A DNA stretch of 36,134 nt, from positions 1-36,134 of the forward strand of contig CAIMSI010000022.1 in NCBI GenBank assembly GCA_903844115.1. Direction: 5' to 3'. The position numbers and the translations under genes were made by a program. This DNA comes from an uncultured Actinomycetes bacterium (GTDB taxonomy: Bacteria; Actinomycetota; Actinomycetes; Nanopelagicales; Nanopelagicaceae). The notes below the pieces were generated by a model. The model had not been told where the DNA came from and did not search any database. It saw only the letters and a program-made list of their open reading frames with translations. Below are positions 29,255-31,159 of the stretch, piece after piece; positions within the stretch are counted from its first letter, which is position 1, and each line of letters starts with the position of its first letter.

Positions 29255-29262
29255 GAATGGTT

Positions 29263-29955
29263 ATGTCACAGTCGCCGATCATTTTGGCGCTAGATACACC
29301 GCACCTTGATAAGGCCTGCGAGTGGATTGAAGCGACAAATGAAGTTATCAAGGTTTATAAAACTGGTCTTGAATTTTTCCTCACACACGGAGAGACTGGA
29401 ATAGCTCGTTTGCGCGAGGTTGGAGATTTTGATCTATTTTTAGATCTCAAACTCCACGATATTCCTAATACGGTGGCATCGGCGACAAAAGCCATTGCGC
29501 ATATAAATCCTCGCTTTCTTACCGTTCATGCTTCCGGCGGTAAAGATATGGTGCGCTCGGCTGTGGAGGCTGCTCCTCACATAGATATTACGGCAGTCAC
29601 AATTTTGACGTCGTTATCTGAAATTGATTTACAAGAAATTGGTTTTGCTGAGGATGCACTTCAATCCGCTGTGAGTTTAGCCAAGCAATCGGTTGTAGCC
29701 GGAGCACGCGCAATTGTTTGCTCCCCGCTAGAAGTGCGGGCCATACGACTTGCAGTTGGAGATTCTCCAACAATTATTACTCCTGGCGTGCGCCCAGCGG
29801 GATCAGATCTCGGAGACCAAAATAGAGTGATGACTCCGGCAGATGCGATCAAAGCTGGTTCCACATTGTTAGTTATCGGCCGTCCAATTACTTCGTTAAC
29901 CGATTCGCGTTTGATGTTGGATAAAGCGCGCGAGATAACTGATAGCACGCGCTAA
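29263..29955 (+). CDS. pyrF: Orotidine-5'-phosphate decarboxylase
   Basis: Decarboxylates OMP to UMP, the last step; 230 residues. The catalytic D-x-K-x-x-D array is D61-L-K63-L-H-D66-I-P-N, with GLEFFLTHG before it and PGVRPAGSDLGDQNRVMTPADAI near the phosphate site. Two ATGs are in frame (29257, 29263); the second is correctly placed 6 nt after AGGA (29253-29256). The TAA overlaps the next ATG by one base. Confidence 0.97.
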   Translation: MSQSPIILALDTPHLDKACEWIEATNEVIKVYKTGLEFFLTHGETGIARLREVGDFDLFLDLKLHDIPNTVASATKAIAHINPRFLTVHASGGKDMVRSAVEAAPHIDITAVTILTSLSEIDLQEIGFAEDALQSAVSLAKQSVVAGARAIVCSPLEVRAIRLAVGDSPTIITPGVRPAGSDLGDQNRVMTPADAIKAGSTLLVIGRPITSLTDSRLMLDKAREITDSTR

Positions 29956-30842
29956 TGAGTCCAGATCGCAGACCAAATCCTCCCGTACTCTCAGCGGAGC
30001 AAAGGCGTGCGAACCTACTCTTAGCAAAAGCAGCCCGCATTGAAAGGGCGTCTGTGAAAGAAGCAATCACCACCAATACAATCTCCATATTTGATGCAAT
30101 TAATGATCCCCGTGAATCAATACAGAGAATGAAAGTGTTGGACCTTTTGGGTTCCATACCCGGAGTTGGTCCGGCCCGAGCACAACTTATTATGGAGCGG
30201 AAGAAGATATCTTTAACCCGTAGAATTGGTGGACTGGGTGCACACCAATTACGAGCTCTGCGCAAGGAGGCGGGAATTATGAAGCTAGATCCTAAACAGG
30301 GTTCCCTCGTTGTGATGTCCGGGCCTGGAGGCGTTGGGAAGAGCACAATTACTGCATATCTAAAAAATGACCCTCGCTTTTGGGTGAGCGTTTCTGTTAC
30401 GACAAGAGCGCCACGTGTTACCGAAAAAGATGGTGTGGATTATTTTTTTGTAACAGAGAACAAGTTTGATCAACTGGTCGCTAGCAACGAATTTCTTGAA
30501 TGGGCAAACTTTGCAGGTGCCAGGTATGGAACTCCTAAGACTCCCGTAAATGAGTGGCGAGAACTAGGAAAGCACGTTCTTCTAGAAATCGAAATTGATG
30601 GGGCGAGGCAAATTCGAAAAACTGATCCGACTGCCAAACTGATCTTCATTGCGCCTCCCTCCTGGGAAGAACTTGAAACCAGACTTGCCAACCGGGGGAC
30701 GGACTCTCCAGAGAGGCGAGAAGCCCGACTAGCCCTTGCGCGCCAGGAGATGGCAGCGGCAGCAGAATTCGACTTTACTATCGTGAATGAGCAGGTCGAG
30801 GGCGTTGTAGCCCAGATGGTATCCTTGGCAACTGCGCCATAA
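29955..30842 (+). CDS. gmk: Fused actinobacterial integration host factor (mIHF) - guanylate kinase
   Basis: One continuous 295-residue frame encodes two proteins that are normally adjacent but separate in actinobacteria. Residues about 1-107 are mIHF, a nucleoid DNA-binding protein: LSAEQRRANLLLAKAARIERASVK, then RMKVLDLLGSIPGVGPARAQLIM and SLTRRIGGLGAHQLRAL, the H2TH-type region. Residues 109-295 are guanylate kinase (GMP to GDP): P-loop GPGGVGKST (123-131), SVTTRAPRVTEKDGVDYFFV, LEIEIDGARQI and the lid with LANRGTDSPERREARL. There is no stop between them. However, an ATG at 30279 (M109) has a strong upstream AAGGAGG, so free Gmk may also be made. Confidence 0.93.
   Translation: MSPDRRPNPPVLSAEQRRANLLLAKAARIERASVKEAITTNTISIFDAINDPRESIQRMKVLDLLGSIPGVGPARAQLIMERKKISLTRRIGGLGAHQLRALRKEAGIMKLDPKQGSLVVMSGPGGVGKSTITAYLKNDPRFWVSVSVTTRAPRVTEKDGVDYFFVTENKFDQLVASNEFLEWANFAGARYGTPKTPVNEWRELGKHVLLEIEIDGARQIRKTDPTAKLIFIAPPSWEELETRLANRGTDSPERREARLALARQEMAAAAEFDFTIVNEQVEGVVAQMVSLATAP
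30264..30281 (+). promoter_or_regulatory. Internal ribosome binding site and start for stand-alone guanylate kinase
   Basis: AAGGAGG (30264-30270) lies inside the fused gene, encoding part of R-K-E-A at the mIHF end. Eight nt later comes ATG (30279-30281), in frame, at codon 109. Initiation here would give a Gmk of 187 residues, a normal size. It is one of the strongest Shine-Dalgarno matches in the window. Confidence 0.6.
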
Positions 30843-30877: not shown

Positions 30878-31159
30878 GTGTCTAATTTGTCTGCGAACGA
30901 CGGAATCACCAATCCTCCTATCGATCAACTTCTCGATAAGGCTGGTTCTAAATACAGTCTCGTCCTCTACGCTGCAAAGCGTGCGCGCCAAATTAATGCT
31001 TATTATTCACAACTTGGTGAAGGCCTTCTTGAATATGTTGGTCCGCTTGTCGATACATACGTTCATGAGAAGCCTCTCTCTATCGCTCTTCGCGAGATTA
31101 ATGAGGGTTTACTCACCATCGAAAATCTCGAACCAAAGAGCACCGAAGCTTCAGCATAA
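30878..31159 (+). CDS. rpoZ: RNA polymerase omega subunit
   Basis: A small RNA polymerase assembly subunit that clamps the beta' C-terminus; 93 residues. Recognised by [31 protein letters not shown] and the following [12 protein letters not shown], plus the actinobacterial C-terminal [18 protein letters not shown]. The start is GTG with AAGGGG (30867-30872) 5 nt upstream. The gap of 35 bp after gmk is the largest between 20326 and 36001. Confidence 0.95.

Follow-up and report, generated by a model that had tools for sequence, protein, structure and literature searches.

An mIHF-guanylate kinase gene fusion with a conserved internal start, predicted to give a fused and a free kinase

In M. tuberculosis the gmk and rpoZ genes come after mihF, and deletion of mihF had polar effects such that the complementing plasmid needed both downstream genes (PMC6155035). 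In the window (the whole stretch of DNA analysed, 36,134 nucleotides) mIHF and guanylate kinase (Gmk) are instead read as one gene, which raises the question of what is made from it: a single fused protein, or a fusion together with a free kinase. The original prediction held that the two domains share one frame without a stop and that an AAGGAGG 8 nt before an in-frame ATG (30279) allows two products. The elements that it named are in place: the frame is open, both domains score above the curated cut-offs of their families, the AAGGAGG has the spacing given, and the two frames are 295 and 187 aa long. The features are as follows.

29257..29955, forward strand: pyrF, the upstream operon partner (NF001273, 220.7 bits)
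29955..30842, forward strand: fused mIHF-Gmk open reading frame, 295 codons (295 aa), ATG start, open throughout
29982..30269, forward strand: mIHF domain (actinobacterial integration host factor, H2TH), residues 10-105 (NF041260, PF22525)
30264..30270, forward strand: internal Shine-Dalgarno sequence AAGGAGG, coincident with the K104-E105 codons (duplex -12.2 kcal/mol)
30279..30281, forward strand: internal start codon ATG (M109), after an 8-nt spacer (30271-30278) that follows AAGGAGG
30279..30842, forward strand: predicted second product, a free guanylate kinase of 187 aa, proposed from the conserved start
30300..30830, forward strand: guanylate kinase domain, residues 116-292 (TIGR03263), with the P-loop GPGGVGKST intact
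30878..31159, forward strand: rpoZ, the downstream neighbour (TIGR00690, 75.2 bits)

The gene order around the fusion is pyrF, fused mIHF-Gmk, rpoZ, coaBC and metK, the pyrF stop and the fusion ATG share one base (TAATG), and no stop codon lies between the two domains. The mIHF domain matched NF041260 (actino_IHF) with 84.9 bits against a cut-off of 60 (model positions 3-100 of 102) and PF22525 with 62.3 bits. The window protein departs from the usual form of mIHF, which stands alone with approximately 105 residues, in that no stop follows the domain; as NF041260 is a model of the equivalog_domain type, the fusion leaves the domain's membership intact. The kinase part matched TIGR03263 (guanyl_kin) with 213.8 bits against a cut-off of 160.45 (model positions 1-178 of 180), and the predicted 187-aa inner product encloses this match completely. 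Its translation contains GPGGVGKST (pattern GxxGxGK[ST]), TTRAPR and EFLEWANFAGARYGT, which we take to be the P-loop and the GMP-binding motifs. The adjacent arginines of the mIHF RRxxGLG motif, R89-R90, are present, and with these in place the domain may bind and bend DNA. The motif reads RRIGGLG (30219-30242), as compared with RRVRGLG in the solved sIHF and RRLRGLG in the solved mIHF; the third arginine of this region is absent from the family's fused forms that were compared.

In the genome of the window (1.44 Mb, 144 contigs, 98% complete) the fusion and NF041260 each match once, at the same place (the NF041260 match is 29982-30269), and Gmk is present in one copy. A search of this 98% complete assembly with NF041260 found no second, free mIHF; hence the claim that mIHF is joined to Gmk agrees with the genome's single mIHF lying in the fusion. 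A separate HU-type protein is encoded. GMP to GDP kinase activity is expected of the Gmk domain, since it is the only Gmk in the genome.

We searched 151 genomes of the window's family, a group of small-genome actinobacteria, and 251 from its order (all placed in the same family). The stop-free fused frame is the rule in the genera g1, g2, g3, g4, g5, g7, g8, g11, g13, g15 and g16, and single-contig genomes with only one match each are among the fused ones; two adjacent genes were found in g6, g9, g10, g12, g14 and g17. The join is open in all 80 species of the window's own clade (clade X; the four genera g1, g2, g7 and g15) and in all 33 species of the sister clade (clade Y; g3, g4, g5 and g16), that is, relatives share the loss of the stop on which the original prediction was built. 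Its concern about an assembly error, or a stop lost in a single genome, is settled by the open join in more than 100 other genomes. A tree was built from CarB, PyrD, CoaBC and MetK (2190 columns). Its earliest branches are split genera (g14, g6, g9 and g12); inside them lie three groups, two of them fused (g3/g4/g5/g16, and g1/g2/g7/g15 with 99% SH-aLRT) and the third combining the fused g8 with the split g10 and g17. By our own counting on this tree the distribution within the family fits three gains of the fusion, or one gain and two losses. In two g17 genomes (L095 and L096) mIHF and Gmk are in the same frame and the sole barrier is a TAG directly before the gmk ATG (AGG TAG ATG), i.e. one base change away from a fusion.

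A class-wide search identified the fused frame in a second family (f31), where all sampled members have it save for one or two whose matches are fragmentary, and in family f29, genus g89. The f31 fused protein is 78% identical to WP_223172673.1, a single CDS of Microbacterium sp. NIBRBAC000506063 (Microbacteriaceae), and this similarity points to f31 being Microbacteriaceae. WP_223172673.1 (298 aa) is annotated in RefSeq simply as gmk/guanylate kinase; as in the window, mIHF and Gmk are in one frame between pyrF and rpoZ, but it belongs to a separate lineage, has a longer linker and lacks an internal start at the join. In the g89 fusion (L167 and L168) the linker is different and the join carries no internal start. 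The expectation that the fusion would be unusual did not hold, given that the fused state occurs in most genera of the family and in Microbacteriaceae. Tsukamurella carries mihF and gmk as the usual two genes. A Microbacterium record labelled as a plasmid (L246; NZ_CP072877.1 437280-443092) contains gmk, rpoZ, metK and a pyrF whose annotation is split in two, and from this gene content it is probably a piece of the chromosome; two Fic-family genes lie between its gmk and rpoZ. None of the papers searched describes an mIHF-guanylate kinase fusion. A fused gene of this kind is already in RefSeq as plain gmk, and the new part of the finding is the internal start.

For each fused gene every in-frame ATG, GTG and TTG was listed, and the best pairing of the 14 upstream bases with a generic 16S tail, which may differ from that of the window's own genome, was computed. 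An NTG at residue 108 or 109 together with a duplex of -5 kcal/mol or stronger is present in 75 of the 80 clade X species, against 22 of 80 for the next-best independent two-codon interval elsewhere in the gene. Under a synonymous null, with codons drawn from each genus's own usage and species treated as independent, 22.2 would be expected; at ≤-7 kcal/mol 50 were observed and 14.8 expected, and at ≤-9 kcal/mol 33 and 8.6, respectively. At fourfold third bases the species agree with median identities of 0.28-0.39; these sites are thus saturated, and shared ancestry explains little of the conserved start. Moreover, in a subset with pairwise fourfold identity <0.42, 41 of 44 species have it (14.1 expected); saturation and such thinned subsets lessen the concern about species independence in the null without removing it. 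Column 108 reads GTG or TTG in 80% of the species with Val or Leu there, the highest of 34 Val/Leu columns (next 54%), and shows 6 changes on the tree compared with 10 for the median column. Of the 18 Glu columns, none uses GAG more often than column 105 (93% of clade X). Because the fourfold sites are saturated and the conserved start lies above the null, selection keeps the internal start; protein constraint alone as the source of AAGGAGG is ruled out by the same two results. In these sequences the Shine-Dalgarno and start codon of the putative internal in-frame start are kept beyond protein constraint in clade X, and the idea of two products is strengthened accordingly by a predicted ribosome site that selection has conserved.

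Conservation of the AAGGAGG itself was only partly borne out: a Shine-Dalgarno sequence plus NTG is kept across clade X, but AAGGAGG or CAGGAGG with ATG109 is confined to five species, the window's own and its four closest sisters. Elsewhere in clade X most species have GTG, TTG or ATG at 108, and about half of g2 has ATG at 109; all 21 g2 species have TTG108 or ATG109, and one of them has both. Five g1 species (L031, L034, L044, L054 and L056) have lost the start, which is therefore dispensable rather than essential. Pairing in g15 is mostly weak (-5.2 to -7.4 kcal/mol; three are stronger). Four of the 33 clade Y species have an internal start, as do none of the nine from f31 (Microbacteriaceae-type). 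Among 32 starts ranked, all from the window, the internal site pairs most strongly and the start of the fusion itself (-1.9 kcal/mol) is one of the weakest, and this weak pairing may mean that little full-length product is made; in some g1 species the codon used for the long form is less certain (several GTG/TTG picks). Around the internal start the RNA has mean z values of +0.15 (residue 108) and +0.77 (residue 105), no clear reduction in structure, and elsewhere the gene is equally open; a promoter and terminator scan around the mIHF/Gmk join gave sites no commoner than in shuffles. In clade Y, 24 of 33 species (e.g. L077 and L065) have a TANNNT hexamer at a distance of exactly 6 bases upstream of the mIHF start codon, as do 5 of 9 early-branching split genomes, but at this spacing only 5 of 80 clade X species have it; the spacing is as for a leaderless transcript that would start at the mIHF ATG.

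An AlphaFold2 model of the fusion (22 sequences) has both domains confidently folded (mean pLDDT 92.5, pTM 0.66). The last mIHF helix spans residues 96-108 and is followed by the linker, so that a start at 108/109 would give a clean Gmk. The pLDDT falls to 72-77 over residues 101-120, among the least confident parts of the model, as expected for two separate domains on a short flexible linker. The best match among solved structures is M. tuberculosis Gmk (1znw, TMt 0.90); for the mIHF part the nearest solved structures by sequence are SCO1480 (4itq/6bek) and mIHF (6tob). Median identities within g1 are 60% for the mIHF part and 71% for the Gmk part, and with the synonymous sites saturated this indicates that both are under purifying selection.

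We consider it likely that this is one gene with two products, a fusion and a free Gmk, left by the merging of neighbouring operon genes. The conserved pair mihF-gmk would have turned into one gene in the window's family, and translation from 29955 would give the 295-aa fusion, in which each domain does its ordinary job. In clade X a second ribosome-binding site and a start at 108/109 would add a free Gmk of approximately 187 aa. The long form would supply all mIHF and the short form would be an ordinary Gmk; the cell's one mIHF would then come with a kinase attached, and a large share of Gmk would be free. A merger of adjacent, almost overlapping genes is the probable origin of the fusion, which would be tolerated rather than needed, and the kept internal start would let Gmk output be set apart from that of mIHF. 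The sequences show the frame and its conservation, the selection on the internal start and the single gene copies; use of both starts, activity of both domains and the reason for the arrangement are what we infer from them. The long form is probably the only product in clade Y and Microbacteriaceae; there it must serve as Gmk, and Gmk would consequently tolerate an N-terminal domain.

An alternative that we regard as unlikely is that only the fusion is made in clade X as well, the internal start being a relic or a by-product of conserved Lys/Arg-Glu codons that read AAGGAG. The C-terminal motif of mIHF does favour K/R-E at this place, and g3, g4, g5, g16 and Microbacteriaceae have the fusion without such a start; however, NTG and GAG are well above synonymous expectation at saturated third positions, and in g2 the start shifts between 108 and 109 without being lost. 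Free mIHF could also be made if the internal Shine-Dalgarno provoked a +1 frameshift, as happens in prfB, or if a protease cut the linker, one of the regions that the model predicts with least confidence. We hold this to be highly improbable: a +1-frame stop at most four codons from E105 is found in 26 of 26 g15 and 20 of 21 g2 species, but it mostly follows from an A after NTG or ATG, it is not conserved in g1, the genus with the strongest Shine-Dalgarno, where the distance runs from 1 to 39 codons, and the slow codon and slippery site known from prfB are both absent.

The joining could, on the other hand, have a function of its own, with mIHF recruiting Gmk to the chromosome, or with Gmk, on binding guanine nucleotides, altering how mIHF binds DNA. 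Such a tether strikes us as improbable, even with the fusion present in more than one actinobacterial family, persisting in many species, and both domains conserved. Split genera exist in the same family, the model gives no sign of fixed domain packing (its pTM is low relative to its pLDDT), the clade X start would free Gmk from mIHF, and because mihF and gmk already lie side by side, they could merge without any functional reason. The link between GMP/GDP state and the nucleoid that had been suggested is unsupported for the same reasons, as the split genera manage without a fusion and the predicted domains are separate on a flexible linker. A wider version, in which the sole mIHF and sole Gmk are one molecule in much of the family, with one start in some genera (where neither would exist in free form) and two in others, and the coupling has consequences (such as chromosome-bound Gmk or nucleotide-dependent DNA binding), seems unlikely to us. 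Since fused and split forms alternate among close relatives and the genes are adjacent in any case, we judge the fusion to reflect mainly gene merging in compact genomes.

Set beside known systems, the mIHF domain resembles mIHF and sIHF (Rv1388 of M. tuberculosis and SCO1480 of Streptomyces) in its domain of approximately 100 residues, its RRxxGLG motif and its operon position before gmk and rpoZ, and differs in always being joined at its C-terminus to Gmk. The kinase is like Rv1389 of M. tuberculosis in its complete domain, P-loop, TTR motif and fold; the long form adds an N-terminal DNA-binding domain, and the predicted short form would be an ordinary Gmk. Bacterial and phage cases of one gene with two products include Cas11b (PMC11899642) and the second endolysin of Ms6 lysA (PMC3111421), C-terminal parts made alone from a second in-frame start; the window's gene differs in that its long form joins two unrelated housekeeping proteins and its putative inner start lies at a former gene border. 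The locus would thus offer a natural example of two housekeeping genes of an operon collapsing into one, after which selection retained a ribosome site where the genes had met, as an internal start. Relatives with only the fusion, only split genes, or the fusion plus internal start allow each state to be compared directly, the sister lineages without the start being built-in controls. Annotation as plain gmk can make the mIHF gene look missing and leaves the inner start unrecorded. Finally, the internal start is often followed by A (30279-30282 in the window; g15; g2), and the resulting NTGA forms an overlapping +1-frame stop like the stop-start overlap ATGA; this may be a remnant of the border between the former genes.
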